A stretch of DNA of 36,979 bases. It comes from Singulisphaera sp. GP187 (GTDB taxonomy: Bacteria; Planctomycetota; Planctomycetia; Gemmatales; Gemmataceae). The position numbers were made by a program, and so were the translations under genes. Positions 529 to 33,491 of this stretch are shown here, one piece after another. The DNA lies in contig CAMBMH010000020.1 of the NCBI GenBank assembly GCA_945868575.1, forward strand, positions 1-36,979. The letters are read 5' to 3'. Every line of letters starts with the position of its first letter. Within the stretch, counting starts at the first letter, position 1. The notes beneath the pieces were generated by a model. It was not told the origin of the DNA. It worked only from the letters and a program-made list of their open reading frames with translations, and searched no databases.

Positions 529-565
529 TCCGTATCGGGTATATATCCCTTAATGAAGGTGGAGC

Positions 566-2559: not shown

Positions 2560-3257
2560 TGACGGCCAGTTCCGCGACGGTTCTAGTCCAACTGCCTATG
2601 ACCGCTTTGGATGAATCCGGAGAATTTTGTTGGAACCGAATTGGTGTCCAGGGTGACAGTTCCTGCCCAAGGTTGAAGGAAGTTGTCCATTGCCATAATT
2701 GCCCGATTTACTCCGCTGCGGGTAGAATGCTGTTTGACAGGCCACCTCCGGATGGCTTGATCGAAGAGCGTACCCTTGAAGTCGCCCGTGTGGAATCGCG
2801 GGAGACGGATGATTTGGAATCGGCACTCCTGTTCCGATTAGGCGCGGAATGGCTGTTGCTTGATGCCATCAACATTGTTGAAGTGGCTGAACCTCGCGTG
2901 ATCCGTCGAATTCCCCGGAGGACTGATGCGGTATTTCTGGGGATTGTCAACATTCGTGGGGAATTGCGGTTGGCGTTTGATTTGCGCCAATTGCTTGGGA
3001 TCGCCGCCCTTGAGGGATCACCCAAATCGCTTTCCCGATTTGTGGTGATTCATTGGGAAAGGCAAACCTGGGTATTTCCCGCCGACGAGGTCAGCGCGGT
3101 AATCCGTCATGGGCGGGCCCGGGAAACAGGAGCGCCATCCACGCTCGAGAGGTGGAAATCCGCCTTGGTGCGCACTGTGGTTGATTGGGAAGGGAAAAAA
3201 GCAGGCAAGATTGACCCAGGTGAGCTTTTGGCTCGCCTGGTGAAGCATGTGGGTTGA
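2559..3257 (+). CDS. CheW-like adaptor with N-terminal Cys cluster (WspD-like)
   Basis: Second CheW of the operon, 232 residues. Residues ~85-225 form a CheW domain: LLFRLGAEWLLLDAINIVEV, then RRIPRRTDAVFLGIVNIRGE (the GIVNIRGE motif), then AFDLRQLL. The first 60 residues are not CheW. They hold a compact cysteine pattern, CWNRIGVQGDSSCPRL then HCHNCPIYSAAGR, with cysteines at 24, 36, 45 and 48. From memory the same CWNRIGV...CP...HC.NC.VYS block occurs in Pseudomonas WspD, so this is a subfamily mark; its function is unknown to me (metal or redox site is a guess). The start overlaps the upstream TAA by one base. It lies directly before cheA, as wspD precedes wspE. Confidence 0.88.
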   Translation: MTASSATVLVQLPMTALDESGEFCWNRIGVQGDSSCPRLKEVVHCHNCPIYSAAGRMLFDRPPPDGLIEERTLEVARVESRETDDLESALLFRLGAEWLLLDAINIVEVAEPRVIRRIPRRTDAVFLGIVNIRGELRLAFDLRQLLGIAALEGSPKSLSRFVVIHWERQTWVFPADEVSAVIRHGRARETGAPSTLERWKSALVRTVVDWEGKKAGKIDPGELLARLVKHVG

Positions 3258-3286
3258 TTCCTAAACAAACAAATAAAGAGTCTCCT

Positions 3287-6157
3287 ATGTCTGATATTTT
3301 GTTGGAATTGTTCCGGGAAGAAGCCGCAACGAATCTCAATGTCCTGGCCAATGGGCTGATTGAAGGGGAGCATGGCGGCCTTCTACCCAAGGATATTGAG
3401 CCGCTCATGCGAGCCGCCCACTCCCTCAAGGGCGCGGCCAGGGTGATCGGGCTGACTCCGTTCGTTGATGTCGCCCACCTGGCGGAGGACATCCTTGTCG
3501 CCGCACAAAATGGGGTGACCCAACTGGTAAGCGCCGACTTTGATCTTTTACTTTCGACAGTCGAATTGTTGAGGGAAATGGTTGAGTTTTCAGGCCCGGG
3601 ATTTCAGAATTGGTACAGCAACGAATCGCAAAAAGTTGACCAACATTTGGATCAGTTGTCCAGGCGTGCCGCAGGCGAGGCCATTGTCCAGCCAAAGCCA
3701 ACCAAACCAACTTCAATCGAAACAAAAGCACCAGAGAAAGCTGTCGAATTGGAAATTCCCGCTGAAGCCGCGCCAGCAGTCGAAGCTTCCGCCGAAACTC
3801 CCGCATTCTGGACCTGTCTGACCGATCAGGAATCCGGGCCAATGCTCGACCTGATGAAATCGGAATTGGCAAGGGCCATGACGGATTTCCAGGCGGCGGT
3901 GGAAACAGCCAATGGCGATCCCAAAAAGATGGCTAGCATGGTCGACAACATCCGCGAATGTCGCGGTTGTGGACTATTGGTTGAAGCCACCCAGGTTGTT
4001 GAATTGACCAATGCGATTGAAAAGGTCTTGCAAGGATTGGTTGAAAACCCGGGAAACTGGCAAACGGTTCAGCCCTGGTTGCGTGACGCTTCAAAGCTTC
4101 TTGATGAAACCGGCAAGGCTTGCGGTGAGGGGTTCGCAAAGTGGACCGAGTCCCAAGCCTCACGCGCCGCCGGGATTTTTCATGTTGGGTCTGTTGGATC
4201 ACAACCCCCAAAAGTGGAAAAAGAATCCGTCAAAGTCACAGCGCCTGTCCCTGTCGTTGAGCCCGCCGTCGCCGCTCCCAAGGCTGCTGTCTCAAACGAA
4301 GTTCCCAGAAAAGAAGTACCCCCCCCATCCCCGAAACCCGAAGTTCCTGTCCCTGCCCCTGTCTCCAGAAGGGAATCCAAGGAGACAGTCTCCGAGGGAG
4401 CCCAAGCTGAGAGAATCGTAAGGATCAACGCGCAAGCCCTGGAAAAGTTGATGGGGCTTGCGGGGGAATCCCTCCTGGAGGCGCGCTGGCTTCAGGCCTT
4501 TGCGCAGAGTCTTCAACGATTGAGGCGACAGCAATCCATCCTTCAGGACGAAATGGATGAAATCCTCGGCGCGTTGGGCAAGGAGCGCGTGGATCTCGAC
4601 CGTCTTCGGGAGACCTTGCAGGGATATCGTCAAAAATTTGTCGGCCAAGGCGAATTGCTTGTGGAGAGGGTGACATCCTTCGAAGAGCATGCCAGGCAGT
4701 CTGATGATCTGAATAGTCGGCTTTATCGCGAAGTGATCCTTAGTCGGATGACCCCGTTTCGCAATGGCGTACAGGGTTTCCCCAAAATGGTACGCGATAT
4801 CTGCAAGCAACTGGACAAACAGGGCAAGCTGGAAATCCGGGGGATGGATACCGAAGTAGATCGGGATATCCTCGATAAGCTGGACGCACCCTTGACCCAT
4901 ATGATTCGCAATTCGCTGGATCATGGTCTGGAATTACCGGAAGATCGCGAAGCCGCTGGAAAGAACCCTTCCGGGAACCTTGTCCTGGAGGCCCGTCATG
5001 CCGCCGGGATGCTTGTGATTACTCTCTCCGATGATGGAAGGGGAGTCAATCTGGACAGGATTCGGGCCAAGATCATCGAGAGACGGCTAGCTTCGGCGGA
5101 TATGGTTGGCAGGATGTCGGAAACCGAACTCCTGGAATTCCTGTTCCTGCCGGGTTTCAGCACCGCGGGAGCGGTTACGGAACTTTCCGGTAGGGGTGTT
5201 GGTCTTGATGTGGTCCACAGCACCATCACGAGCGTTGGTGGAAGTGTTCGGCTTACCAGCACGGTTGGGAAGGGAACCACATTCCACATGCAGCTTCCCC
5301 TGACCCTCTCGGTGATCAGGGCGGTATTGGCGCGCATTAGTGGCGATCCTTACGCGTTTCCGCACCACAGGATTGATGGACTTATGCGGGTTCCAGCATC
5401 CGAATTGCGGTCCCTTCAGGACAGGCAATTTTTTGTGGTGGATGGGCGCAATGTTGGATTGGTGCTGGCCCGACAGATCCTACAAGTGGACGGCGAGGCC
5501 GAAAGCCAGGCGGAATTGCCTGTGATCCTTTTTTCCAGCCATGGCCAATCGTATGCCCTGTTGGTGGATGAATTTGTTGGGGAACAGGATCTCGCCGTGC
5601 GGCCGATTGACCCCCGGTTGGGCAAGGTGCCGTATGTTCATGCATCGGCGATCCTCGATGATGGTTCGCCTGTCCTGATTCTGGATGTGGACGATTTGCG
5701 ACGGGGAATTGACCGGCTTCTGGATGAGGGGCGTCTGAGGCGTACCGATGCCGCGGTTGGATCCGCGCACAGGCGAAGGCGCAAAAAAGTCCTGATTACG
5801 GACGATTCGATCACCGTTCGCGAAGTTCAAAGGCAACTCCTTTCAGGAAGGGGCTACGAAGTTCAAACGGCGGTAGATGGGGTGGATGGTTTCAACATTG
5901 CCCGGGAGGAATCGTTCGACCTCATAATCTCCGATATCGATATGCCCCGCATGAACGGTATTGAGTTTGTGACAAAAATTCGCGCGGATGGGAAATTGAA
6001 GGACACACCGGTGGTGGTTGTCAGCTATAAAGACCGTGAGGAAGACCGACTTCGTGGACTCGAGGCCGGCGCCAACTACTACCTTACCAAAAGCAGTTTC
6101 CAGGATGACACCCTTCTCCAGGTCGTCCACGAATTGATTGGAGAACCGAATTCGTGA
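3287..6157 (+). CDS. Hybrid chemotaxis histidine kinase CheA-REC (WspE-like)
   Basis: 956 residues from the ATG at 3287, which has AAAGAG six bases upstream; a TTG at 3254 would overlap the previous stop and has no good ribosome site. Domain order: Hpt/P1 at 1-110 with phospho-acceptor His45 in AAHSLKGAARVIGL; a second Hpt-like helical segment at ~174-270 with Arg223 where His is expected; a Pro/Val/Lys-rich linker to ~380; dimerisation helices; HATPase with THMIRNSLDHGLE, SDDGRGVNLDRI and GAVTELSGRGVGLDVV; a CheW-like regulatory domain; and a C-terminal receiver with Asp883 in IISDIDMPRMNG. CheA-REC hybrids are typical of Wsp and other non-flagellar systems. Predicted to phosphorylate its own REC, CheB and the REC-PP2C regulator. 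The stop overlaps the next start (GTGA). Confidence 0.95.
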   Translation: MSDILLELFREEAATNLNVLANGLIEGEHGGLLPKDIEPLMRAAHSLKGAARVIGLTPFVDVAHLAEDILVAAQNGVTQLVSADFDLLLSTVELLREMVEFSGPGFQNWYSNESQKVDQHLDQLSRRAAGEAIVQPKPTKPTSIETKAPEKAVELEIPAEAAPAVEASAETPAFWTCLTDQESGPMLDLMKSELARAMTDFQAAVETANGDPKKMASMVDNIRECRGCGLLVEATQVVELTNAIEKVLQGLVENPGNWQTVQPWLRDASKLLDETGKACGEGFAKWTESQASRAAGIFHVGSVGSQPPKVEKESVKVTAPVPVVEPAVAAPKAAVSNEVPRKEVPPPSPKPEVPVPAPVSRRESKETVSEGAQAERIVRINAQALEKLMGLAGESLLEARWLQAFAQSLQRLRRQQSILQDEMDEILGALGKERVDLDRLRETLQGYRQKFVGQGELLVERVTSFEEHARQSDDLNSRLYREVILSRMTPFRNGVQGFPKMVRDICKQLDKQGKLEIRGMDTEVDRDILDKLDAPLTHMIRNSLDHGLELPEDREAAGKNPSGNLVLEARHAAGMLVITLSDDGRGVNLDRIRAKIIERRLASADMVGRMSETELLEFLFLPGFSTAGAVTELSGRGVGLDVVHSTITSVGGSVRLTSTVGKGTTFHMQLPLTLSVIRAVLARISGDPYAFPHHRIDGLMRVPASELRSLQDRQFFVVDGRNVGLVLARQILQVDGEAESQAELPVILFSSHGQSYALLVDEFVGEQDLAVRPIDPRLGKVPYVHASAILDDGSPVLILDVDDLRRGIDRLLDEGRLRRTDAAVGSAHRRRRKKVLITDDSITVREVQRQLLSGRGYEVQTAVDGVDGFNIAREESFDLIISDIDMPRMNGIEFVTKIRADGKLKDTPVVVVSYKDREEDRLRGLEAGANYYLTKSSFQDDTLLQVVHELIGEPNS

Positions 6158-7185
6158 GAATCGCGATTGTCAACGACTTGCGCATTGCCACCGAAGCCCT
6201 CAAAAGGGTGATCGAAGCCGGGGGCCACCAACTGGCCTGGACCGCGGTGGATGGTGTGGAAAGCGTTGACAAATATCGCAATGACAAACCAGATCTGATA
6301 CTGATGGATCTGGTAATGCCCAACATGGATGGGGCGGAAGCGACCAGGCAAATCAATCAGATCAAGCAGGTTCCCATCCTTGTGGTGACCTCGTCCGTTG
6401 CCGCGAATTTCAACCTCGCCACCAAAGCTATGGGTTTTGGGGCCATTGATGTGGTTTTGTTACCGGAGATGCGCGGGAACCCGATCAAGGATGGCGCGAC
6501 ACTCCTTGGACGATTAAAAAATATCGAAGAGATAGGCAAGGGGCGTGATAGGGGATCGTCGGTCATTGTCCCGAAATTGGAAACGACTGTTGCTTCAAAA
6601 GGGATTAAATTACCCCTCATTGTGATCGGTTGCTCCACGGGTGGGCCGGCGGCATTGGAAAAAATCATCACCAGTTTGCCCAAGGATTTTCCTGCCGCAA
6701 TTATGGTAATCCAACACATTGGCTCGGAGTTTTGCGAATCGTTCGCCCGATGGCTTAACCGACCGGAAGGTCTTCCGGTTTCGCTTGCCAAGGAAGGTTC
6801 GCGCCCGGTCATAGGTCAGGTTTTGGTTTCGATGAGTCATTCCCACCTGGTCATGCGCCGGGATGGAACACTTGCTTATAGCGTTGAGCCCAAGGACAAT
6901 CCGTTTGTGCCATCAATAGATGTCTTTATGGAAAGCTGCGCCCTCAATTGGACGGGCGGCAAAGGGATCGCCGGCATCCTTACCGGAATTGGCAGGGACG
7001 GCGCAAAGGGACTCCTTGCCCTGAAGAAAGTGGGTTGGGTCACATTTGCGCAGGACGCGGCGACTTCCGTGGTTTTTGGTATGCCCAAGGTGGCGGCTGA
7101 ATTGGGTGGCGCGCAAACCATACTTCCTATCGGTGATGTCGAAAAATTTTTGAAGAACAATGTAACCGGGGCTGTAAAATTATGA
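6154..7185 (+). CDS. CheB receptor methylesterase/response regulator (WspF-like)
   Basis: Removes methyl groups from the receptor and so opposes CheR. 343 residues, starting at GTG 6154 inside the stop of cheA, with GGAGA nine bases before it. The receiver domain covers residues 1-115: Asp8 in MRIAIVND, phospho-acceptor Asp52 in LILMDLVMPNMDG. The usual Lys before a Pro at the end of beta5 is Leu103 (VVLLPEM). A linker leads to the esterase domain with Ser161 in VIGCSTGGPAALE, His188 in VIQHIG and Asp282 in LTGIGRDGAKG, the complete catalytic triad of CheB. The opening MRIAIVND resembles WspF. The stop overlaps the next gene by ATGA. In Pseudomonas, loss of WspF locks the pathway on; the same sign of control is plausible here but inferred. 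Confidence 0.94.
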   Translation: MRIAIVNDLRIATEALKRVIEAGGHQLAWTAVDGVESVDKYRNDKPDLILMDLVMPNMDGAEATRQINQIKQVPILVVTSSVAANFNLATKAMGFGAIDVVLLPEMRGNPIKDGATLLGRLKNIEEIGKGRDRGSSVIVPKLETTVASKGIKLPLIVIGCSTGGPAALEKIITSLPKDFPAAIMVIQHIGSEFCESFARWLNRPEGLPVSLAKEGSRPVIGQVLVSMSHSHLVMRRDGTLAYSVEPKDNPFVPSIDVFMESCALNWTGGKGIAGILTGIGRDGAKGLLALKKVGWVTFAQDAATSVVFGMPKVAAELGGAQTILPIGDVEKFLKNNVTGAVKL

Positions 7186-8393
7186 AACCAGAAAACAATA
7201 ACGATTCCATTGCCGGAATCCGCTCCATGAAAACGCGAATCCTCCTTGTCGATGACCAGGAGATCATTGGTCGGGCTGTCGGCATGATGTTGGCAGACCA
7301 ACCCGACATCGAATTCCTCCACATCAAAAATCCGGTGGAGGCGATTCCGTCCGCTGTTGAGTTCAAGCCGACGGTGATCTTGCAGGATTTGGTGATGCCT
7401 GAGGTGGATGGGCTGACTCTGGTCAAGTTTTTCCGGGCGCATCCGGCGACAAAGGAAATTCCGCTGATTGTCCTCTCGGCCCGTGAGGAACCCATTACCA
7501 AGGCGAAAGCTTTTGAACTTGGCGCGAACGACTATGTTGTCAAGCTTCCCGACAAGCTGGAATTGCTCGCGAGAGTCCGCTACCACTCCTCGGGTTATCG
7601 TCACCTTCTCGAAAGGAACGAGGCCTATCAGCAAATCGAGATGTCACGCCGGAGCATGGCGGGCCAGATTCAGTCCGCCCTGAGGTATGTCCAGTCGCTC
7701 CTTCCGGCCCAACTCGACGCGACGCCCGCGGTTCCGATCCAGGCAAGGTGGAATTACCTTCCGTGTTCCTCGCTGGGCGGCGACACCTTCAATTATTTCA
7801 TGCTCGATGACGATCATTTGGCGATGTACCTCCTTGACGCGACCGGTCACGGACTGGATTCGGCGCTATTGGCCGTTACGGTGATGAATGTGCTTCGTTC
7901 CCGCGCCCTTGACGCGGATTTCCTGATTCCCTCCACCGTGGTGGACGCGCTGAACAAGGCGTTTCCGATGGAGAGCTACGGAGATAAGAGTTTTACCATC
8001 TGGTATGGGGTTTATAGTATATCAAAAAGGGAGATCGCGTGGTCGGGCGGGGGGCATCCCCCTGCGTTGCTTCTTCGTCCTGGCGAGGAGCCAGAACAGT
8101 TGGAGTCGGATGGTCCGATTATCGGCATCATGCCCTGGGACGAATTCATCACCTCGAGGCGGAGCGTGCCACCCGGAAGCCGGATTTTCCTCTATTCGGA
8201 CGGTTGTCACGAGATCCACCTCCAGGATGGTGGGGAGTGGAAATTTTCCGAGTTCCTCGCGGAGGTGGTCAAAATCCGCGATATGGAAGGCGCGGCGCTA
8301 CTTCAAAACCTGCTGGAGACCTGTCGAAGCCTTGCCGGCGCGGATATCCTCGATGACGATTTTACCGCTGTATTTTTCGATTTTCCCGAATAA
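7182..8393 (+). CDS. Response regulator: WspR-like receiver fused to PP2C/SpoIIE (RsbU-like) phosphatase
   Basis: Output protein of the chemosensory operon, 403 residues. Residues 17-150 are a receiver: DD at 24-25, phospho-acceptor Asp69 in PTVILQDLVMPEVDGLTLV, Ser99, Lys121 in GANDYVVKLPD. The stretch KPTVILQDLVMP, GANDY-VKLPD, ARVRYHS and LLERNEAY is strikingly like the receiver of Pseudomonas WspR, as remembered. After a short helix the protein continues not with GGDEF but with a PP2C phosphatase: SSLGGDTFNYFMLDDD (Asp201), YLLDATGHGLDSALLAV (Asp219), IFLYSDG and DDDFTAVFFDF. The metal-binding acidic residues look intact, so an active Ser/Thr phosphatase is expected. RsbU-type enzymes dephosphorylate STAS anti-sigma antagonists; no STAS or anti-sigma gene is visible in the window. 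ATGA overlap with cheB; alternative start at 7227. Confidence 0.92.
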   Translation: MKPENNNDSIAGIRSMKTRILLVDDQEIIGRAVGMMLADQPDIEFLHIKNPVEAIPSAVEFKPTVILQDLVMPEVDGLTLVKFFRAHPATKEIPLIVLSAREEPITKAKAFELGANDYVVKLPDKLELLARVRYHSSGYRHLLERNEAYQQIEMSRRSMAGQIQSALRYVQSLLPAQLDATPAVPIQARWNYLPCSSLGGDTFNYFMLDDDHLAMYLLDATGHGLDSALLAVTVMNVLRSRALDADFLIPSTVVDALNKAFPMESYGDKSFTIWYGVYSISKREIAWSGGGHPPALLLRPGEEPEQLESDGPIIGIMPWDEFITSRRSVPPGSRIFLYSDGCHEIHLQDGGEWKFSEFLAEVVKIRDMEGAALLQNLLETCRSLAGADILDDDFTAVFFDFPE

Positions 8394-12739: not shown

Positions 12740-13012
12740 TTAATCGACAATGAGATCGTATATTTGGGATTGGATCTGCTTCAGATTACCCGTGGCCAGA
12801 ACCACCTCAGCGTTCCCGTCGCAGTTCGCGTCAGCGGAAGGGATTCCCATATCCGATGCGGAGTTGGGGGCCTTCTCAAGGAAACTGGAGATCAGGGTGC
12901 CTTTTGGTCCTGACCAGATGCGAACATCTGTGTTCGCACCGGCTTGATCTACGGTGATGATGTCCTTTTCATTGCCTTTATTTTCATCTCGTAAGTTAAC
13001 TGATCGTGAAAT
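12740..13012 (-). pseudogene. Out-of-frame C-terminal FG-GAP tail of the giant protease
   Basis: Downstream of the TAA at 12996 the minus strand is open in the +1 frame from 13012 to a stop at 12740, about 90 codons with no start of its own. It reads DENKGNEKDIITVDQAG, TDVRIWSGPKGTLISSFLEK, APNSASDMGIPSADANCDGN and AEVVLATG. This is clearly an FG-GAP repeat and matches the repeat inside the long protein (DFDKDNYDDIITTAQSGG, DFRIYSGRTGALITSFLNN, VPSSPSDVGIAS). A one-base indel between 13012 and 12996 would join it to the 3101-residue protein. It may be the true C-terminus of that gene (mutation or assembly error) or a decayed duplicate. The homology is seen directly; the frameshift explanation is inferred. 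Confidence 0.65.
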
Positions 13013-16000
13013 TTATTGTCTTTGTTGAGCGGTTGCCCAATGAATCCTCGGCTAGGACCTCTAGAGTGTATTTCCCAGCGATCAATATGTTGGTGGGCAG
13101 TGTGAGCCTCCAGGAGTTGGTTCCTATCGCAGTGTTCCAAATGCGGGATTTATTGGCTTGATCAAAAGACCGTGCTTCCGGTTGTCCGCCCAACCATAAA
13201 CCATAGGGGTTCCTAATGGCTACGCTCACATTTTTTGTACTATAACTCCCAACATTAACTGCTCCCCTTATCGACCCAGGCCACATTACCATAGGGATAC
13301 TGATGTCGGGCAAGGGGCTGGTAATTAATACCTCTGGAAGACGGATATTGGATGCGATCCCAACATCCGATGGGGAGCTGGGAACATTATTGAGGAAACT
13401 GGTGATCAGAGCACCAGTTCGTCCCGAATAGATACGAAAATCTTTATTCCCACCGGATTGAGCGGTGGTGATGATGTCGTCGTAATTGTCCTTGTCGAAA
13501 TCCTCAGTGGCGACCTGGATCGCTCCGGTAAAGCTACCGTAAGGGTTTAAGCTGTATTTGGGCATAAGGGAGTAGTCGCGTCCGGAAAATACCCGGACCG
13601 CTGCCCTGATGCCTCCGTTGGTGGCGACAAGGATATCAGAATAGCCATCCTTGTCTAAATCGGAGGTGGCTATGTTCAAACCAAAGGTGTAGCTTGTGGG
13701 AAAAGCCATGAAGCTCCTCAAAAGCGCGCCTGTGGCTCCATTAAATACCCTGACATTCGGTCCACCAGATGTCGCCGGGACGGTAACAAAATCAGGGACC
13801 GAATCCGTATTGAAATCACCAATAGCGGCACGAACACCACCAAAGAATGAGTCGTAGGGAACTACTTCACGAATTTTGCCAGCGGGGCCGTAGAGGGTCG
13901 CAATAGCAGGGGAGCCCTTTGCGCTGCCGAATACACCATAGTCGGTGTAGGAGCCCACCCTTGCAATGGTTGGCGATGCGAGGTTGGTGTTGCCAAAGGC
14001 ATCCACCACCGAACCTTCGGGTAGAGCGACCGTGTAGCGGGTGGTTCCCGTGGGTGTGAGATCAAAGGTGTATTTGCTGCCTGAACCCCGTAGGTTCGAT
14101 ACGGTTGCACCAGATACGGCGAAGTCGCTTGCAGTCAACCCGGATACCGTTGACGAGAATTCCAGATTGCCCACTTGGGTATTGTTCTGGCCGGCAACCA
14201 GATTGAACACGGTCAGGTTGCCCGGTTGGTTATTGTTTGGGCCGGTAACCAGATTGAACACGGTCACAACCGGACGGACGGTTGAATACTCAAAAGAGCT
14301 GTTGGCAATGGAGGCGTTACCAAAAGTGTCCGTGGCCTTGACCCCGACATAGTAGGTGCCATTGGCCAACTTGCTGGCGGCCAACGGTAGTGACCAGGAA
14401 GATGGTCCCTGTGCGGTGGTCCAAACGCCCACATCTGGGATAGTAGGTGTAATTCTCGGATCGACGGTCAAGGCAAAGCTTCCCGGTGCGCCGAGCCAAA
14501 CTGGTGTTTGTGACGAGAATCCGGTTCCATCGTAAAAGAGTCCATTAGGACCCTGAATTACCACGCTAACCGGGGGTGATCCCAAATGGGCCAAATGGGC
14601 ATCTGAAATGCTTCCGGAAATCGAACCAGGCCAGGATTGGGAGTTGAATTTGCTACCGGAAACGGGGCTGGTAAGGAGAAGGGTTGGAGCAACGCTGTCA
14701 ATCACAAGATTAAGAGGATCAAATGGGTCGCTTGGATTTCCTGCGCGATCCACTGCGGTTGCCACTATGCGGATCGCACCTTGAGGCAGGCCCGTCGTTG
14801 CGATGGAGAACTTGCCATTTTTGTCCGCTTTGCCTGATGCGCTGATTGGCGCGCCGGTATCCGGGGTGATAACGAGGCGGACAAGGACCCCCGGGGTCGC
14901 TTCGCCTGTGATCGTTGGGTTGTTGGTGGAAACAATAATCGGAGACGAAGAGGAGCCCTCCGATACGCGAAGCGATTGGACCACGGGATGCGAGGTGGTC
15001 AGGATCTCGATGCTGACCGGTGCGGAAAGCTGAGAGACTGATCCAGCCCGGTTGGTCACGGTGGCGGTGACTTTGTAATTGCCGTCGGGACGAAGCTGGG
15101 TCGAGTCGTCCAGGGTCCATCTTCCTGATGGGTTGGGGAAGGCATATCCGGCAAGAACATCATTCACATAAACCGAAACCAGATCGCCAAAGGTGGCAGT
15201 TCCCTGGACCGTGAGACCGGATAGATTGGTGGCCAGGTCATAGGTGCCATCTTTACGGAGTGCGCCGATAACAACCGGAGCCTGTGGAGTAAGCTGAATG
15301 AGCTCAATCGCAAGCACCGCGACTTTGGCAGCCTTGTTGCCCGCGGCGTCAATGGTGTTTACCGTTGCCTTGTAAGATCCATCGGGAAGGTTGGTGCTTT
15401 GGGGAACTTCCCATCTCCAAGTTCCAGAAGCACTTGCATAGGTCTTGCCTTGAAGTTTGCCGACCAGGCTTGCGCCTTCAAGGTCGATCTGGATTTCGGC
15501 AAAAGGTTCCGCCTTACCACCAATCGAGAACCCGGGCAGGTTGGTAAAGCCCAGTTCGTTACTGCCGTTCTTGCTCGAAAGGGAGTTGATTACCGTGTTG
15601 GCGGGAGCGGTCTGGTCGATGAGGATGCGATAGTCCTGCGATGGGGTTTGGTTTCCAAAAGGGTCGGTGCCGATGGCGCGGAGGGTATGTCTCCCTTCGC
15701 CTAGGTTGGATAGCCCCGTCCATTTCCACTCGCCGGCAATCGCGGTGACTGTTCCCAAAAACTTTTCCGCTGGAGTTCCCGCATCGGCCCAAAGAACGAT
15801 GGTAGCGCCCGTAGGGGCTTTTCCTGAAACCTCTGTAGGGGAAACACTGGTGATTCCGTCCGAGTCGCTGTAGCCCGTATCGACTTTGATTTTATCCACA
15901 GTTACCGAACCAACAGGGTAGCCGACCGTTTGTACGGTGAAGTTAAAGGTGATGGGGGCGCCAACATTTCCGGCCACATCCTCGGCCCGAACCGTTATGC

Positions 16001-19000
16001 TGTTTTGCCCCTCGGAAACCGGTATGTTGATTTGCACAGAGAACTTGCCAAGGCTATCTGCCAGCCGGGACCCGATGACAACTCCGTTTTGCAGGATTTC
16101 GACAAGGGCATTGGGTTCCGCATTACCCAGTATAAACGGGGTTTTGGAGTTGGTGTAATTGGGAACCGGAGCGGAGTCACCGGTAGCTGGATTGATGATG
16201 CCGGTAACCGTTGGGGCATTCGGGTTGGTGAGGTCCACCAGGATGGTGAAGGCGGGGGTTCCGGGGACTCCGTTGTTGGGTCCGGCGACTCCGGTCGCGG
16301 AGGTCGAACTTAGGATGATTTCATGTGCGCCTTCAGACAAGAGAGAAGTCGGCTGACTCCACTTTCCTGTGCTGTCGGCGACCACGGTCGCCAGGTTCAA
16401 CCCGTCGAGAACGATTTGGACCGAGGAATAGGGCTGGGCGGCTCCCCAGATTAACGGATTATTGGAATTGGTGATGCCGTCTTTGTCGCTGCGACCGGTG
16501 TCTTTTACGATGCTTGTGACAACAGGCAGGGATGGAACTTCGGAATTGACAACCAGCGAAACCGGCACGCTCTTTGGACTTGGTAGATCATAGCCATCGA
16601 TCTGAACGAGGGTCAGGCCGATTGGGATATTGATCGCTGTTGTTGGCAGTCCTGAGATTTGCAGATTAACCGGGCCGGGCCCAACCACCGTGGTGGTCTG
16701 GAACAGGACATTGTTCAGAAACACCTGGACTGGTCCCGTGGTGTCGAGGGTCGCTTTGAGATTGAGCGAGGTTGACTGGGTGAAATAGATTCCCTTCGGC
16801 GCCGCCGAGCCATCAATCTGGGTGATGATCGGTGCCTTGGGGCCAACGGAAACCACGGTCAAAGAGAAAGGCAACGATGCCGGACTCATATTCGTATAAG
16901 GATCTGTTGCGTAGGCAATAAGGGTGTTGGGGCCTTCGGGGATCGCTTTGGAAAGTGTAACGACCCAGTTGCCATCCGGTTGGACCGAACCCGTGCCCAG
17001 TACCGTTGACCCCGCTACGCTCATGATCTCGATGATTGCGCCGGGTTCACCGATGCCACCAAAAGTTGGAGTGGTTGAGGGAACCGAAAGGGTAAGGGAG
17101 TTGAATGGGGTGACAGTTTTGATGGTGGGGGCCAGCGGAGCGGTGGTGTCGAGAGTGAGCACACCCACGGCGACAGGCAGGCTCTCGTGGCTGCCAAGGG
17201 CGGTTTGGGTGACATAAAAATTGTAAGTCCCGTCCGCCAGGGTCGAGGTCATTCCCGCGAAGGGATTGGCAAATGTCTGGGAAAGTTTTCCGTTGACGCA
17301 GTCGATTTTCACCAAGGCTTTGAGTGGCGCGTTTTTCTCCAGAGTAGATTGGGCATAGAGGGTCACGGCATCGGCGGCTGTGCCAAACTTCGGTCCACGC
17401 AGGGTGGACCACTTCGGTCCACGCAGGGTGGATGCGGCCTGGAGGATTGCGTTGAGTGTGAAGTCCGCACCCAGTCCATTAACCGTCATGGATGTTACAG
17501 GCACCCCCTTGTAGCTAAGGGTAGCGGTTGGAGAAATGAGCTTTTCGATGAAGTCGTTGCCAATCACCGCGGTGTTCGGGGTGACGGTGATGTTGCGTTG
17601 TCCATCCGATGGCAGAACCATCTGGAAGTCGCCGAAAAATTTTTGATCGTTGCTACTGTTGTCGACTTTGAGCAACGCTTGGGCGTAAGTGGCCAAGCCC
17701 AATCCCGATCCTAATGAGGGGATTTCAAAGTATCCGGCCGCATCGGTGGTGGTGAGGTATTGGATGGCCCCGGAGGATGGGTTAATACTATTTCGAACCG
17801 AGGATGGCTCGGAAGTGGTGAAGGTGAGTGACCAGGACTGGATATAACCGTTGTTGATGACACTTTTGTCAACAACAATAAATTTCCACTGACCAAAGGT
17901 GGAAAGTCCGTTGAATTGGGAAAGATCACCCGTGGGTCTCACGGAACCAGAAATGATCGGTTTGGTGGCGGAGGCCACCAAACGGTCCAATGTAGGCAGC
18001 GATGGGTTGTTTGAGAAATTAATATCCAGGAGACCGCGGACATTGACAAAGCTGTTGCTGTAAGAGGGAAGGCTTGAGAAGATTTCGATTTTGCTACCGT
18101 CTGGACCTTCCAAGTATCCAGTCAGGTCGGACAGTCTGGAATGACGAAGGGTCATCTTCATGCCGAGGTTGGTAATCGTGCCCTGACGGCCATTGTCGGC
18201 GGTCACATCAAGCACCGCGACGGTGGGTTTGCTATCGTCAATGGAGGCGGGAACCAGCGAGGCGGGGATGAATTTGGTCGGGGTGGTTTCGCCTTGAGGA
18301 ATAAAGACCGGGTCAAATTTTCCATTTCCGTTGAGGTCGGCGTAGACCCGGCGGTCGGCGATGCCGATGCCGTTTTGGTCGACGACTTTTCCGTATGCCG
18401 CGCCCTTTTCGCCTATGAACGAAAACACGGGACCCTGATAATCGTCACCGGGCACGCCGTCGCCGTTACCATCCAATTTCGTTCCGAAGGGGTTTACCGC
18501 AGAGTTTGCGTCAACCTCAAACCGGTAGGTGCCGGGCATCATCACGCCTTCGACCCGGAAGGTGACCATATTCGTTCCGACCGCGTAATCGGAGGTAGGA
18601 ACCAGAGGGACGATGTTGTCGTCGGGGGTTCCAAAAATTCCATCCGAGCCGCGGCCCCGGAATTGGACCGGACGATCCGCTTTCATTCGGACGCTGTCCA
18701 AAAGGCCGCCAAATTCGACCTGGATGTCTTTGGGAACGGCGCTCACAGAGGAGCCCATACTGGGGAGGTTGCCCACGGCTTTAACCGATGGAAGAGCCCC
18801 CTGTCCGAGAAGTGAACGGGATGCCGGCGAGGCGGCGGTGCGAAGTTGTTCGACGACTCCGTCCTTGAAACTGATGAGGATACCAAGGTTGGCGGAACTC
18901 GATTGGGTCGGGTCCACCGAAACCGAGGTCAGACCGACAAGCGATTCGCGAATATCAGATAATTTGGATCCGCTGTTAGAGCTGAAGAATTCGATCTTTC

Positions 19001-22000
19001 CATTCGAGGTTGACGCCACATAATTCTGGGAGTCGGAGGTGAACGAAATGCCTACGACTGATACGCCTCCAAGCGGGCTGCGGGAAACAAGCCGGAAGGA
19101 GACCGTGTCCCAAATTTCGACCTGTCCTCCATTGTTGCCAATGGCGATAAATTGGCCATTGGGACTTGTTTCGACTTTGGTGAGCGGCAATTCGGACGAG
19201 CTGCCAATACTGCGAACATAACTGGCCTGCCGGGTTCCGGTTGTAGTCTTGTTTGCGGGATCAAGCGGGTCCCGGTTCCAAATGCGGGCAAATCCGGATT
19301 GGTCGGCGCTGATCAGGTATTTTCCCGTGGAGCTATATACCAGGTCGGCGACACCGCCCGGGCTGGCAACAGGGTAGTTGGTCGCGGCGGGGAATATAAA
19401 AGAGATCTTTCCAGTAGAATAAAACCATTCCTGAATCGTGCCACCATCGGTCGCCGTCGCGATGCTCAGGGAGTCGGCCGAAATCGCGAGCGCGACAACC
19501 CGACCGTTTGTGGTGGGATCGCTGAATTGGGTGACTGTCCCTTGTTGGGAATCAACGAGGAAAACGGCTCCCGCGGAGTCGAGCACAGCAAGGAAAATGC
19601 CGTTAGGGCTCCATTTGATTTGGGTGAGTGGATTGGCGCTAACGCGGATTCCGGCAAGGTTGATCTGTGCTGCAGTGCCAAGGTAAATCATTCCATCGGA
19701 TCCGGCGATGGCGCGGGTGTTTCCGTTGGTTCCAGGGTTGGCCGCGCCACGGGCCGCGACAGCATTAGCGATAACGCCGACAGGAAGAGTCTGGGAATTG
19801 CCGTTTCGGAGCGTGAAACGGTAGACCTGTTTGTCCAGGGTGGCGATCAGGATCTCGGCGCCATTGCCTCCAAACGAGACGGAGGAGATGGTATCGAATG
19901 CCGGGGAGCCATTCGGAAGAGTTACCAGTTTTCCCGATCCGTCATGGATTTCGTTCAAAGGGACAAAGTATTGGGCTACAATCGACCCATTCGTTTGGGA
20001 GCGGACTAATACATTTCCGTTGACTTGGCCATATGCAAAATTGCCGCCAGCAATGGCCAAAGCGGTGATCGGGCTTGTATCGCCTTGGGCCAGGATCCTC
20101 ATTGAGGCGGGGGATGCCGAAAGGTTCCAAACCGTGACAGTGCCGCTGTTATCCCCAATGAAGAGGGTTGATGGGACCGACGGTGAGAAAGCCAGTGCGC
20201 TCACAACCTCAGGCACTCCGGCATAGCGTATGGGAACGCCTGCAAGTGTCGGAGCGACGGTGAGGAATCCACCATTGGCGGCACCGATAGCAAGGAGCGA
20301 TTGGTTGGAATTCAACGCGAGACAATTGGCTGCGCCAACGGCGATCTTCGTGGAAAGGTTTCTTCCAAAATCCTGACGGAGGAGCGTCCCTTTTTCGCTA
20401 AGGGCGTACGCCACCCCGGTAAGATCGTTGGTTGAACCGAGGTCAGTTCCCAATTGAAGACCAACAACTTTGCTGTTGGCCTCAACGGTGACCTTGGAAA
20501 CAAGACGGAACCAGGTTCCGGAATTTGCTACTGGGCGGGTGAAATAGCTGATCGTGCCATCGGCGCTGCCCACAACCATCCGGGTATCGCTATCAAGAGC
20601 GATGCTGGTGAGGGGAACTCCGGGTGTCACGGACAGGAGCTGTTCCAGTTTTCCTGCGGCGGACCAGACTTTGACCGTGCCGTCCAGATCGGCGGCAACA
20701 CGAATCGAGGTCCCGGTGGCGACAGCGGCAAATCCGGTGGAGGATGCCGAACCGCCAAAAGCATTGATTCGGCCATGGCCAAGTTCGCCTTGATACGCGG
20801 CATTTCCCGGCAGATTGTAGATGTTGTCCGCGGAGGCGTAGATTTGCGAGACGATCTGATCGCGGGTCCAGGTCGGGTGGGCGGACTTGATCAACGCAGC
20901 GACACCCGCGGCGACCGGCGAGGCCATCGAGGTGCCGCTCATGTAATTGTAACCGTTTTGTGTGACAGTGGAGAAAATGCCACCTGCAGAGTCGGGATTG
21001 CCCTGCTGGTCGTAAAAGTCACCCCCTGGCGCGGAAATATCCACCGAGGTTCCATAATTGCTGAACGAGCTTTTTGTGTCGTATTTGCTTGTGGCCGAAA
21101 CCCAAACGACATAGGGATTGCGGGCAAGTGCCTCAGAGACATCCAGGTTGTCGTTGGCTGCCGCCACAAAGGAGATAACACCCTTGTCGTGAAGCTTCTT
21201 GAAGGCTCCAATAACCGCAGAGTCATCGGAAAGCTGGAAGCCCGCACCCTGAATGGGCGCTTGGCCGTTCATCAGGATGATGCTGGAATTGGTGATATCG
21301 GCGTTGTTCACATAGGCGTAGTTGAGGGCTTCAACGATGACCAATGAGTCATAATTAGCGGCGTTGGTCAGTTTGACCGTCATGATCTGGGCGCCGGCGG
21401 TTTGCGCTGTGGACCCGTTGGGGAGAATCTGACCGCCACCCGCGATGCCAGCTACACCAATCTGGTTATCCATTTGGGCCGCGATGATACCTGCCACATG
21501 GGTCCCGTGATCGTCAAAAACGGAGTCGGGGCGTACATCCCCAGCAGGCTTTGATCCGGTTCCGGAGAAAGGACGCTGGATATCCACACCATGAATATCG
21601 TCGATGTAGCCATTATTGTCGTCGTCGATGTTGTTTCCCGCAATTTCACCGGGGTTGGTCCAAATCGCATTCCTAAGATCAACATGGTCTATGTCGGTAC
21701 CGCTATCGGTCACGCAAACAATGGGACGATAGGCTTTATCGTTAACCGTGCCTGTTCCCCGGATATACTCCCATGCCCTGACGGCTTCGGTGTTTTGCTG
21801 TTGGTATTGAAGCGAGGCAAAAGGATCATTGGGAGAAAAATTGGCCAATCCGTACCCCTCTTGCGAGCGATAGACAAAATTGACGGAAGCAAACTCAACC
21901 TGAGGCAACACATTCACCGCGCCCGCCACGCCAACGGGGTCGAAATTGGGCTTCAGGTTGACCCGAAGCATGGTAGATGAAGAGGTTTGAAAAATGACTT

Positions 22001-22301
22001 CGCTGGTATTGAAATCGATTGCGTTTTTGAGGTCGGCGGCAGCCTGGGATTGGATTAGGTTTTTGAAGGAGTTCAGCCCCTGTGTGCCTTCCACCTCAAC
22101 CAAAAGCCGGTCGCCCGAATAGGGAGTTTTCAAACCGGGATATTTGAGGAGGGTAGGATCGTCCGCAAGCGATTCCGAGCCTGCGGCAAGGAGAAGTGCA
22201 GGGACCTGCCTGTCTTCCAAAACTTCAATGAACAGTTGCACGGCCCGATCACGGGTACGCTTGGATTTGGAGTTTGTGCGCCCAAAGGATTGCCAATTCA
22301 T
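12996..22301 (-). CDS. Giant secreted subtilisin-like protease with propeller, P-domain, Ig-like and FG-GAP modules
   Basis: 3101 residues; AGGA lies about ten bases before the ATG. The N-terminus has the planctomycete motif VLEDRQVPALLL at ~28-39. A propeptide-like segment (~50-165) leads to a peptidase S8 domain with Asp199 (TDSGTDID), His265 (DDHGTHVAG) and Ser458 (SGTSMASPVAAG), so an active protease is expected. WD40-like blades follow at ~528-1170 (DLDGTVKVWSAAG, NNGGQVEIWDT), then a short DGIFGTPDD module and an SdrD-like piece (ADLNGNGKFDP). A proprotein-convertase P-domain spans ~1355-1495, and about eight bacterial Ig-like modules lie at ~1720-2535. Next come two copies of a TSP/WPGSI domain (~2537-2664 and ~2989-3101) flanking FG-GAP repeats (~2790-2985). 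Probably cell-surface or matrix located. The last domain ends at a stop that may be frameshift-derived. Confidence 0.88.
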   Translation of the reverse strand: MNWQSFGRTNSKSKRTRDRAVQLFIEVLEDRQVPALLLAAGSESLADDPTLLKYPGLKTPYSGDRLLVEVEGTQGLNSFKNLIQSQAAADLKNAIDFNTSEVIFQTSSSTMLRVNLKPNFDPVGVAGAVNVLPQVEFASVNFVYRSQEGYGLANFSPNDPFASLQYQQQNTEAVRAWEYIRGTGTVNDKAYRPIVCVTDSGTDIDHVDLRNAIWTNPGEIAGNNIDDDNNGYIDDIHGVDIQRPFSGTGSKPAGDVRPDSVFDDHGTHVAGIIAAQMDNQIGVAGIAGGGQILPNGSTAQTAGAQIMTVKLTNAANYDSLVIVEALNYAYVNNADITNSSIILMNGQAPIQGAGFQLSDDSAVIGAFKKLHDKGVISFVAAANDNLDVSEALARNPYVVWVSATSKYDTKSSFSNYGTSVDISAPGGDFYDQQGNPDSAGGIFSTVTQNGYNYMSGTSMASPVAAGVAALIKSAHPTWTRDQIVSQIYASADNIYNLPGNAAYQGELGHGRINAFGGSASSTGFAAVATGTSIRVAADLDGTVKVWSAAGKLEQLLSVTPGVPLTSIALDSDTRMVVGSADGTISYFTRPVANSGTWFRLVSKVTVEANSKVVGLQLGTDLGSTNDLTGVAYALSEKGTLLRQDFGRNLSTKIAVGAANCLALNSNQSLLAIGAANGGFLTVAPTLAGVPIRYAGVPEVVSALAFSPSVPSTLFIGDNSGTVTVWNLSASPASMRILAQGDTSPITALAIAGGNFAYGQVNGNVLVRSQTNGSIVAQYFVPLNEIHDGSGKLVTLPNGSPAFDTISSVSFGGNGAEILIATLDKQVYRFTLRNGNSQTLPVGVIANAVAARGAANPGTNGNTRAIAGSDGMIYLGTAAQINLAGIRVSANPLTQIKWSPNGIFLAVLDSAGAVFLVDSQQGTVTQFSDPTTNGRVVALAISADSLSIATATDGGTIQEWFYSTGKISFIFPAATNYPVASPGGVADLVYSSTGKYLISADQSGFARIWNRDPLDPANKTTTGTRQASYVRSIGSSSELPLTKVETSPNGQFIAIGNNGGQVEIWDTVSFRLVSRSPLGGVSVVGISFTSDSQNYVASTSNGKIEFFSSNSGSKLSDIRESLVGLTSVSVDPTQSSSANLGILISFKDGVVEQLRTAASPASRSLLGQGALPSVKAVGNLPSMGSSVSAVPKDIQVEFGGLLDSVRMKADRPVQFRGRGSDGIFGTPDDNIVPLVPTSDYAVGTNMVTFRVEGVMMPGTYRFEVDANSAVNPFGTKLDGNGDGVPGDDYQGPVFSFIGEKGAAYGKVVDQNGIGIADRRVYADLNGNGKFDPVFIPQGETTPTKFIPASLVPASIDDSKPTVAVLDVTADNGRQGTITNLGMKMTLRHSRLSDLTGYLEGPDGSKIEIFSSLPSYSNSFVNVRGLLDINFSNNPSLPTLDRLVASATKPIISGSVRPTGDLSQFNGLSTFGQWKFIVVDKSVINNGYIQSWSLTFTTSEPSSVRNSINPSSGAIQYLTTTDAAGYFEIPSLGSGLGLATYAQALLKVDNSSNDQKFFGDFQMVLPSDGQRNITVTPNTAVIGNDFIEKLISPTATLSYKGVPVTSMTVNGLGADFTLNAILQAASTLRGPKWSTLRGPKFGTAADAVTLYAQSTLEKNAPLKALVKIDCVNGKLSQTFANPFAGMTSTLADGTYNFYVTQTALGSHESLPVAVGVLTLDTTAPLAPTIKTVTPFNSLTLSVPSTTPTFGGIGEPGAIIEIMSVAGSTVLGTGSVQPDGNWVVTLSKAIPEGPNTLIAYATDPYTNMSPASLPFSLTVVSVGPKAPIITQIDGSAAPKGIYFTQSTSLNLKATLDTTGPVQVFLNNVLFQTTTVVGPGPVNLQISGLPTTAINIPIGLTLVQIDGYDLPSPKSVPVSLVVNSEVPSLPVVTSIVKDTGRSDKDGITNSNNPLIWGAAQPYSSVQIVLDGLNLATVVADSTGKWSQPTSLLSEGAHEIILSSTSATGVAGPNNGVPGTPAFTILVDLTNPNAPTVTGIINPATGDSAPVPNYTNSKTPFILGNAEPNALVEILQNGVVIGSRLADSLGKFSVQINIPVSEGQNSITVRAEDVAGNVGAPITFNFTVQTVGYPVGSVTVDKIKVDTGYSDSDGITSVSPTEVSGKAPTGATIVLWADAGTPAEKFLGTVTAIAGEWKWTGLSNLGEGRHTLRAIGTDPFGNQTPSQDYRILIDQTAPANTVINSLSSKNGSNELGFTNLPGFSIGGKAEPFAEIQIDLEGASLVGKLQGKTYASASGTWRWEVPQSTNLPDGSYKATVNTIDAAGNKAAKVAVLAIELIQLTPQAPVVIGALRKDGTYDLATNLSGLTVQGTATFGDLVSVYVNDVLAGYAFPNPSGRWTLDDSTQLRPDGNYKVTATVTNRAGSVSQLSAPVSIEILTTSHPVVQSLRVSEGSSSSPIIVSTNNPTITGEATPGVLVRLVITPDTGAPISASGKADKNGKFSIATTGLPQGAIRIVATAVDRAGNPSDPFDPLNLVIDSVAPTLLLTSPVSGSKFNSQSWPGSISGSISDAHLAHLGSPPVSVVIQGPNGLFYDGTGFSSQTPVWLGAPGSFALTVDPRITPTIPDVGVWTTAQGPSSWSLPLAASKLANGTYYVGVKATDTFGNASIANSSFEYSTVRPVVTVFNLVTGPNNNQPGNLTVFNLVAGQNNTQVGNLEFSSTVSGLTASDFAVSGATVSNLRGSGSKYTFDLTPTGTTRYTVALPEGSVVDAFGNTNLASPTIARVGSYTDYGVFGSAKGSPAIATLYGPAGKIREVVPYDSFFGGVRAAIGDFNTDSVPDFVTVPATSGGPNVRVFNGATGALLRSFMAFPTSYTFGLNIATSDLDKDGYSDILVATNGGIRAAVRVFSGRDYSLMPKYSLNPYGSFTGAIQVATEDFDKDNYDDIITTAQSGGNKDFRIYSGRTGALITSFLNNVPSSPSDVGIASNIRLPEVLITSPLPDISIPMVMWPGSIRGAVNVGSYSTKNVSVAIRNPYGLWLGGQPEARSFDQANKSRIWNTAIGTNSWRLTLPTNILIAGKYTLEVLAEDSLGNRSTKTINFTIS
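14165..14266 (-). repeat. 51-bp tandem duplication inside the giant protease gene
   Basis: Two adjacent 51-bp units (14165-14215 and 14216-14266) differ at only a few positions. They encode two successive 17-residue units, TVFNLVTGPNNNQPGNL and TVFNLVAGQNNTQVGNL. The length is a multiple of three, so the frame is kept. Confidence 0.85.
17388..17432 (-). repeat. 24-bp tandem duplication inside the giant protease gene
   Basis: A 21-bp segment (17388-17408) is repeated exactly at 17412-17432 with a period of 24 bp. It encodes two successive STLRGPK(W/F) units just before the Ig-like part. It looks like recent slipped-strand or unequal duplication. Confidence 0.85.
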
Positions 22302-31330: not shown

Positions 31331-31603
31331 ATGAAAAACCTGTTTACGAATGCCCGGTGGGCCCTGGGAGCCATGACGCTCATTGTTTATGCGTCCATTC
31401 AGGCCGCGGGGGGAATTGATGCCGCGGGCGAATTGCTTCTGAAAGCTTTGGCAGCTTGTGCGTTTTCCTGGGTTTTGTTGGTAATTGTGGAGGTTTGCTA
31501 CCATGCCATCAAAGGCAAGGGGCAAGCATGTCCTTATTGTGGCGAATTGCGCCAGATGGCATCGTTTCGAGTTTACCAATCCTGTCCCAAATGTGGCAAA
31601 TAG
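31331..31603 (+). CDS. Small membrane protein with C-terminal zinc ribbon
   Basis: 90 residues; GGAG lies five bases before the ATG. Two hydrophobic segments (ALGAMTLIVYASIQAAGGI and LLKALAACAFSWVLLVIVEV) are followed by a cytoplasmic-looking basic stretch. A zinc-ribbon pattern ends the protein: ACPYCGELRQM, then SCPKCGK at the very C-terminus (two CPxC knuckles 17 residues apart). I do not recognise a named family. It stands alone, convergent with the caspase-like gene 90 bases away. Real coding is supported by the ribosome site and the intact CxxC pairs; the function is unknown. Confidence 0.7.
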   Translation: MKNLFTNARWALGAMTLIVYASIQAAGGIDAAGELLLKALAACAFSWVLLVIVEVCYHAIKGKGQACPYCGELRQMASFRVYQSCPKCGK

Positions 31604-31693: not shown

Positions 31694-33124
31694 TCAGGAA
31701 TTGGATTTGGGCAACAGGTGAAGGATGCCACCGGCGATTTTTGATTGTGTGGTTTCCGCCTGTCCGAGGAGTTCGGCAGGCTGGAAACCACGAAAGGTTA
31801 TGGCGTCGATTTCCAGTCCCAACTGGTAGGATCCTTGGGAGAATTCGGCTTTGTGTTCCAATTGGCTTTCCAGTTTCCAGCCGTTCGCCTTCATTCCCGG
31901 AATGAGTTGTTTTAAAGTGATTTCGGTTGATAATCCCATCCGGATCTCCGAGGGGCGAAGGTCCAGCGTCTCCAAGATCTCGGCAATTTTTTGCGGTTTG
32001 GAAAACCAGCTACTAAAGAAAGTCACATGCTCCAAAAGCCAACCCGCTTTGTCGGTTTCGTGGAGGTATTCCAGCCAATACCGGCCACCCGGAAATCGAA
32101 TGCCCGGGCCTTCCGCGTAGACATCGTCCTCGGGGAAGTCAAAATTGTTTTTCAGGCGGGCGACCGCGCGACCCAGGTCTTCCTGAAAATGTTCGGCCAG
32201 GGTTTCATTTACGCGGCTCGCGATGTATTGCGCGGAATAGGTTTTGCGGATGGCGGTCAAAACATCCTTGACCCGCAATGCCTCGGATCCCACAAATTGA
32301 ACCGAGGCGATAGGCGATTTTCCTAATGAGAGAGACGATTCGATCAATCTTGGTGTGAAATCTCCCAGGATGGTGGGATTAGCGGAGTTATTCACCAAAA
32401 GGGGAACCCCATTTGAGGGGTCACCAGCCAATTCGTCGAGTACCCGAGCCGATACAAACTTGTAAAGACTATTCAGAGTTAGGTGCTTCCCCTCAAGTGC
32501 CTCCCTGGCGCCACCGAGCGCCGCCTTGAGGTGATAGGTAAAAAGACTAAAGCGTGGGTCGGGAGACTCGTTGGAGAGGGTTTCGCAATCAGCACAGGAA
32601 ACCAGCACAATTGTTCCCTTTTTGCGACCAAAATAGTTGAACAATAAATCCGCTGTAATTTTCGAGTCATCCGATTGGAACCAGGAGGCGTCAACAATGA
32701 CGAATTTCTGTTTTGCTTTGGATTTGTCCAGAAATTTGAAAATCTGATCAAAACCGACAAGGCAACCGGGATCCTCTGCGTCGTAGGCATCCTCGGGAAC
32801 AAGATACATTTGATCCCCGATCGAAAGGCCATGCCCGCTGAAATAGAACAAAAGGGAATTTTCCGATCCGGCGCCTGCCGCAAGGCTTTTCACGGCGGCA
32901 AGAATGGCACCACGCGAAACGCTTGAGCTTTTCGTGGTTAGTGAACTTACCTTGCCGGTTTCGGCGCAAAGTTGGGTATAATTAAGGAAACAGTCGCGGA
33001 TCGCCAGAGCATCATTTTCAAATTGGCTCAGCGGGAGAAATCCGGAACCATCCACCTGCCTTGAAACGCCTATGGTCAGGACATGGATTGGCACCAAACG
33101 ACCGTCTTGGTCACTTGAATTCAT
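31694..33124 (-). CDS. Caspase-fold (peptidase C14-like) protein, probably catalytically dead
   Basis: About 476 residues with the start at 33124, preceded by AAAAAAGG at seven bases; the ATG at 33151 is the alternative. The caspase p20-like domain is clear: HVLTIGVSRQVDG, ENDALAIRDCF, then LLFYFSGHGLSIGDQMYLVP with the catalytic-type His98. Where metacaspases have D-A-C or D-C-C, this protein reads KFVIVDASWFQSDD, placing Ser147 at the Cys position (codon TCC, 32684-32686). The following family strand is present (GTIVLVSCADCETLSNE, then RFSLFTYHLKAALGG). The last ~210 residues are an unrecognised domain (VFF-, WLEYLHETDKAGWLLEHVTF). No signal peptide. Likely a pseudo-caspase scaffold; a serine-active variant cannot be excluded. 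Confidence 0.8.
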   Translation of the reverse strand: MNSSDQDGRLVPIHVLTIGVSRQVDGSGFLPLSQFENDALAIRDCFLNYTQLCAETGKVSSLTTKSSSVSRGAILAAVKSLAAGAGSENSLLFYFSGHGLSIGDQMYLVPEDAYDAEDPGCLVGFDQIFKFLDKSKAKQKFVIVDASWFQSDDSKITADLLFNYFGRKKGTIVLVSCADCETLSNESPDPRFSLFTYHLKAALGGAREALEGKHLTLNSLYKFVSARVLDELAGDPSNGVPLLVNNSANPTILGDFTPRLIESSLSLGKSPIASVQFVGSEALRVKDVLTAIRKTYSAQYIASRVNETLAEHFQEDLGRAVARLKNNFDFPEDDVYAEGPGIRFPGGRYWLEYLHETDKAGWLLEHVTFFSSWFSKPQKIAEILETLDLRPSEIRMGLSTEITLKQLIPGMKANGWKLESQLEHKAEFSQGSYQLGLEIDAITFRGFQPAELLGQAETTQSKIAGGILHLLPKSNS

Positions 33125-33491
33125 CCCACGGCCTTTTTTAAGCTCCGTCATATGGCATCTCTGTGCGGGCGATCAGAAATTGGCCAGGTTCAGGCTTTTT
33201 ACCCAATGGCCCATTCCCTGGATTTTTTGAGCCGCTAACGGCTTCGAATAGGCCGTCCAATAGGTCAACTTTGGATCGGTTTCGAAAATTGTTCCGCTCA
33301 TCTTTTATCAGCTTTTATTGTACGAGGAGGTTAGGTTAACATTCGCCCAATGTCACGGACGGCTTGTGGTTGGCTTGACCGCCCAGATTGTTTGGGTAGA
33401 TTGTCCGTTTGTAAGGAGAGTGCTGTTTAGTACAGCAATCGGCTAATACGGAACCCTTCAAATAGCACATTTTTATCCAGGACCCTCCGGC
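33125..33491. other. Intergenic region between divergent genes
   Basis: About 365 bases between the caspase-like and LamG genes. It must hold both promoters, but no convincing -35/-10 pair was picked out. A small inverted repeat, TGCTGT (33421-33426) and ACAGCA (33432-33437), lies 55-71 bases before the LamG start and could be an operator or just chance. Confidence 0.35.

Follow-up and report, generated by a model that had tools for sequence, protein, structure and literature searches.

What does a caspase-fold protein do when serine occupies the position of its catalytic cysteine? The question is raised by a gene in a 36,979-nucleotide stretch of DNA from Singulisphaera sp. GP187, the whole of which we refer to as the window, and for whose product the original prediction had offered two answers: a pseudo-caspase used as a binding or signalling scaffold, or a serine variant of the peptidase. 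We addressed this question using the active site itself, the relatives of the protein in Planctomycetota and the selection acting on those relatives.

The gene and its surroundings

The pseudo-caspase gene (Table 1) is isolated in the sense that both flanking genes lie on the opposite strand, with a Laminin_G_3 gene upstream and a gene for a 354-aa dehydrogenase downstream. Residues are numbered here from the first start codon; His98 and Ser147 of the original prediction, counted from the second ATG, correspond to His107 and Ser156. The gene seems to be intact, and its codon usage is ordinary for the window, the in-frame value being 0.169 per codon compared with 0.063-0.233 for 13 other genes. 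By eye, no signal sequence was evident among the first residues of the protein, and a Pfam scan of neighbouring genes in the window detected no defence genes.

The window also holds a 90-aa ORF (31331-31603, plus strand) that is convergent with the caspase gene and combines a membrane-like stretch with a C-terminal zinc-ribbon-like CPYCG...CPKCGK. Further away are a chemosensory-type cluster (13-8393, plus strand) encoding an MCP, CheW, CheR with TPR, a further CheW, a CheA-like kinase, CheB and a response regulator with SpoIIE phosphatase, and an ORF of 3101 aa (12996-22301, minus strand). DUF1592/DUF1588 domains, which we take to be of planctomycete type, are present as well.

Table 1. Positions in the window of the pseudo-caspase gene, its domains and its active-site residues
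Feature	Position	Strand	Basis or remark
Pseudo-caspase gene	31694..33151	minus	485 aa, one open frame, codon usage
Alternative start (second ATG, Met10)	33124	minus	would give 476 aa
Caspase-fold (Peptidase_C14) domain, residues 22-254	32390..33088	minus	Pfam match 40-237 and fold match 17-242
Asp47, kept; matches the first of the S1-pocket Asp positions (basic pocket, two Asp)	33011..33013	minus	alignment; role from PMC6426788
His107, catalytic His position (FSGHG), kept	32831..32833	minus	sequence, alignment
Asp154 (D of D-A-S), second S1-pocket Asp position, kept	32690..32692	minus	alignment
Ser156 (TCC) at the catalytic Cys position	32684..32686	minus	sequence, alignment
C-terminal region, residues 260-485	31697..32374	minus	probable diverged copy of family domain; decoy test, hhalign, secondary structure

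Serine replaces the catalytic cysteine

Peptidase_C14 was the only Pfam match in the protein (35 bits against a cut-off of 21.4, E=1.5e-8). The catalytic histidine is present in FSGHG, residues 104-108, and the glycine following it is kept, while the strand FVIV is directly followed by D154-A155-S156, so that the catalytic cysteine is absent. The plus strand reads GGA at the Ser156 codon, giving TCC, and base 32685 alone separates this codon from TGC. Sequence and alignment thus agree with what had been read from the DNA alone: a retained histidine and a D-A-C motif changed to D-A-S, one base away from cysteine. No other cysteine takes over the catalytic position, since Cys54, Cys62, Cys130, Cys186 and Cys189 all align elsewhere; Cys186 aligns with the cysteine of a later 'SC' motif, which is present in 40 of 65 relatives. 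The residues after Ser156, W-F-Q, differ from the family motif, which in dyad-bearing relatives reads, for example, C-E-S-G or C-S-S-G.

An AlphaFold2 model of the protein had a mean pLDDT of 49, with block means of 66-90 over residues 41-150. Comparison with caspase folds matched model residues 17-242 to MALT1 (7ak1; Z 14.5, rmsd 3.6 over 170 residues), the model being weak after residue 157. Pseudo-orthocaspases are without a p10 domain; here the match runs as far as residue 242, but with model pLDDT below 50 over residues 176-318. By the Pfam and MALT1 matches, the caspase fold is kept. A sequence search of solved structures gave no credible match, and the anti-phage defence caspase profile PDLC02987 of PADLOC reached 24 bits over just 75 of its 453 positions. 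Taken together, the window protein is a caspase-fold protein with serine at the catalytic cysteine position.

A two-domain caspase family in Planctomycetota

With the window protein as query, matches were found in 35 of 59 related genomes, the best of them at 42 bits and 30% identity. Three matches (L004, L005 and L011) ran beyond the caspase domain and thereby identified a two-domain family of proteins of about 480-590 aa, in which an N-terminal caspase domain is joined to a common C-terminal domain that matched no entry in Pfam or NCBIfam. A profile built from 11 two-domain members, leaving the window protein out, had hits at E <= 1e-20 in 130 of the 397 genomes searched for the class, in many cases through the caspase domain alone. 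In the window's own family, matches were obtained in 49 of 95 genomes and 19 of 39 genera; among the matches listed, 40 of these genomes hold one that spans both domains and 3 more hold one truncated by the edge of a contig. Copies of the C-terminal domain without a caspase domain exist too: among the matches listed, 28 start at a profile position of at least 247, and 25 of these 28 come from genomes of family f4. No description of the two-domain family was found in titles and abstract openings of the papers listed for the open-access literature on pseudo-orthocaspases and planctomycete caspases.

Across 16 family loci, no conserved neighbour was common to more than 6, some of these neighbours being antisense frames, and inspection by eye of the ORFs around L005, L011, L069, L062 and L067 revealed no common defence set. 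One further member, L177 on an IMG/VR contig, carries the full motif D-A-C-H-T-G and is directly preceded by a gene for a 990-aa helicase (L177:13-2985), for which the best PADLOC match was HmaA (366 bits), with DrmD at 247. The C-terminal domain of L062, folded alone, gave a model with pLDDT 75.7 and pTM 0.70. Its matches in the PDB were weak (Z up to 7.8), many of them to TATA-binding protein or other saddle-like sheets, and those to viral predicted structures had low TM-scores. We drew no function from these matches, which may reflect a common arrangement only.

Most relatives lack the dyad, and dyad-less members are under purifying selection

For residue counts we used 65 relatives from E-value-ranked matches, including every full-length match among those listed for the 11-member profile. 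Twelve duplicate loci, 15 C-terminal-only ORFs and L162, which is without the N-terminal part, were removed before counting; the C-terminal-only L038, L043 and L054 were never in the set. Two relatives truncated by the edges of their contigs, L145 and L161, are part of the 65-row column counts and outside the 63 full-length relatives, and L177, a later find with an intact dyad, is in neither number. The His-Cys dyad was present in 9 of the 63 full-length relatives and absent from the other 54, the commonest state being Arg-Asp (21). By column, histidine is kept in 20/65 and cysteine in 11/65, whereas the two columns aligned with the S1-pocket Asp are Asp in 54/65 and 59/65. These columns we take to be the named S1-pocket residues, going by motif positions and by the alignment.

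The cysteine column, whose assignment is uncertain in very divergent rows such as L121, L147, L128, L148, L146, L149 and L150, holds D, S, G, R, T, P, A and E, a spread that suggests that catalysis was lost rather than the nucleophile exchanged; nothing in it favours the serine variant. One relative, L084, has the His-Ser state of the window protein, and other relatives in which histidine is kept have G, R, T or A in the cysteine column. Serine in this column is scattered over separate branches (L084, L034, L118/L142, L120, L143, L117 and L127), and D-A-S does not mark a clade. The branches, most of them supported, are those of an unrooted 48-row tree built after removal of near-duplicates, of four long rows and of the window protein. 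Placing the window protein on the tree was rejected, its branch being too long at 3.97 changes per column. Parsimony on the 48 rows requires a minimum of 7 switches between presence and absence of the dyad and a minimum of 18 changes of the letter in the cysteine column. Because the dyad form is canonical elsewhere, we infer that these changes were losses rather than gains, and that the peptidase dyad was probably lost several separate times within the family.

Dyad-less members evolve under purifying selection. In nine dyad-less pairs (L065/L067, L104/L106, L104/L107, L099/L103, L096/L098, L091/L094, L128/L148, L089/L090 and L131/L138) dN/dS (NG86) was 0.036-0.208 for the whole gene and 0.03-0.23 for the caspase domain, values that are raised in some pairs by residues upstream of the likely start codon. 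Of the two parts of the protein, the C-terminal one had the lower ratio in seven of the nine pairs, L104/L107 and L099/L103 being the exceptions; three further pairs with mixed dyad states or saturated dS were not used. Such low ratios indicate that the dead forms are maintained genes. Together with homology and the missing dyad of most full-length relatives, they lend support to the idea of a pseudo-caspase serving as a non-catalytic module, as far as this can be judged from sequences.

The window protein is probably a divergent family member

The window protein itself has no close relatives in the searched genome contigs, in the 95 genomes of its family or in the 102 genomes of its order, among which its best match was 42 bits. 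Two other genomes of the genus, G001 (100% complete) and G002 (79%), held no counterpart at E <= 0.001 and no DNA-level match of the gene region, and the locus has no neighbourhood in common with the 16 family loci except the gene itself. Within its own genome it was the sole match of a Pfam family search at E <= 0.001. A more sensitive profile detected further caspase-like genes in the assembly, C87 (L111), with His and Cys at both sites (GHA, DIC), and C102 (L113, in G000), which is without the dyad (GSG and DVN). C102 has same-state counterparts elsewhere in the genus, L112 in G001 and L110 in G002, the frames being ~870-890 aa long. A separate set of 690-880-aa frames in genomes of the family (L013, L014, L016, L020, L023, L026, L029 and L030) also has a partly eroded dyad, with GHA, GHG or GHL at the histidine site and DVC, DVF or DIC at the cysteine site.

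At the threshold of E <= 1e-20, the 11-member profile had no match in the window genome, and at a loose threshold one of 65.5 bits (E=5e-18). This profile covers residues 79-347 of the window protein at 66 bits. The C-terminal region alone scored 2-5 bits, which is not significant, with 1 of 500 shuffles scoring higher than 4.7 bits; comparison of this region with the family domain by hhalign gave a probability of 52% and an E-value of 1.4e-4. In a decoy test against 60 ORFs with a caspase domain and a long tail (62 rows, two of them the window gene itself), the window protein came first, with a tail score of 2.4 bits against -1.7 for the next. Its gain from the full-length over the caspase-only profile was 11.8 bits, compared with 5.7 for the best of the 60 decoys. 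Length and N-terminal caspase domain also fit the family, and helices and strands are predicted to follow one another in the tail as they do in the family domain, although this prediction is not independent, as the alignment behind the model contained family sequences. We therefore regard membership of the window protein in the two-domain family as probable, with very strong divergence from the other members. What had been described as a 210-residue C-terminal domain of unknown kind does lack a Pfam or NCBIfam match, but is probably a diverged copy of the domain common to this planctomycete family.

Discussion

We favour the view, with a probability of roughly 0.55, that the product of the gene is a cytoplasmic pseudo-peptidase with a caspase fold, probably a fast-evolving representative of the two-domain family. 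Without the cysteine, the protein would not be expected to cleave. Most likely, its caspase domain takes up a basic peptide or partner and leaves it uncut, a proposal based on the two retained Asp residues, which in related proteases hold Arg or Lys side chains. Binding of this kind might in turn control or position the C-terminal domain. The pattern in the family as a whole is one of repeated loss of the peptidase site, with the two-domain protein retained by selection.

The main competitor to this reading, which we think unlikely although it deserves consideration, is that the window protein is an orphan pseudo-caspase that stems from a different C14 lineage, stands outside the two-domain family and has a C-terminal region unrelated to that of its members. 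Its single-sequence matches to L004 and L005 (41-40 bits) are indeed no better than that to the caspase L003 (42 bits), the tail score alone lacks significance and synteny with the 16 family loci is absent, yet the protein ranked first of 61 in the decoy test and agrees with the family in length, domain order and the order of secondary structure in the tail. Improbable in our opinion is a function-less caspase gene in decay: extreme divergence and the missing orthologue in two other genomes of the genus are what such a relic would look like, but 485 open codons with normal in-frame codon usage, both S1-pocket Asp residues, the glycine after the histidine and the fold have all been kept.

The two remaining explanations concern Ser156 itself, and to neither do we give much credence. 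A working caspase-fold serine peptidase, in which Ser156 stands in for cysteine and acts with His107, would suit the retention of His107 and the next glycine and the identical His/Ser state of L084; it is nevertheless very improbable, given that other His-keeping relatives have G, R, T or A at this site. To our knowledge, no activity has been described for a caspase with serine in place of cysteine. An error of sequencing or assembly at base 32685, the true residue being cysteine, would need a single base only, but is scarcely plausible when W-F-Q after Ser156 also departs from the dyad-bearing relatives and most relatives lack the cysteine too.

Returning to the pseudo-peptidase reading, a broader scenario can be sketched, which we offer tentatively and consider rather doubtful as a whole. 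In Planctomycetota, several conversions of a caspase-type peptidase may have produced regulatory modules that no longer cut and now work for a new C-terminal domain, whose fold weakly resembles TATA-binding protein. By one route, Arg-Asp would have completely replaced His-Cys in a clade that is widespread in the window's own family; other routes would have passed through Ser, Gly, Arg or Ala. In this process the window protein would be an extreme outlier that still bears the histidine. A protease of defence or cell death is conceivable as the ancestor, because full-dyad L177 adjoins the HmaA/DrmD-like helicase, a neighbour that gives a hint of a role in defence. Peptidases that are dead and yet under selection can show what caspase domains do besides cutting, and a family with intact, half-lost and fully lost sites, whose C-terminal domain also occurs alone, provides natural comparisons.

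Relation to known systems

Among described systems, EACC1 conflict systems contain caspase-like peptidases (PMC8195603), and the EACC1-associated caspase NF047832 was the best NCBIfam match of the window protein (60.4 bits, E=1.6e-16), yet far under its curated cut-off of 140 bits. In a 2012 survey, the dyad was intact in 84% of bacterial metacaspases and 64% of those in Planctomycetes, and serine was the commonest replacement of cysteine, so that the Cys-to-Ser change seen here is of a reported type; the section of that survey with the planctomycete figure mentions neither the two-domain family nor its C-terminal domain (PMC3501461). The Trypanosoma brucei metacaspase TbMC1 has the same residue pair as the window protein, with His kept and Cys replaced by Ser (cited in PMC6426788). 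TbMC1 is a eukaryotic type I metacaspase, whereas the window protein is bacterial. We know of no C-terminal domain in TbMC1 that resembles that of the family.

Closest in kind are the bacterial pseudo-orthocaspases, 858 of 9,994 orthocaspases, which share with the window protein the caspase p20 fold, a substituted dyad, the retained Asp pair of the S1 pocket, whose residues have been named for orthocaspases, and often an unidentified C-terminal extension (PMC6426788). They differ in that 90% of them come from Alphaproteobacteria and Cyanobacteria, the term 'planctomycet' occurring nowhere in that article, and in that their commonest dyad is Tyr-Ser, compared with His-Ser in the window protein and mostly Arg-Asp in the two-domain family (PMC6426788). 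In Synechocystis, deletion of a pseudo-orthocaspase leads to higher tolerance of oxidative stress (PMC7889975). On its own, the window protein is a single divergent case of this known pseudo-orthocaspase kind; the useful object is the planctomycete family.
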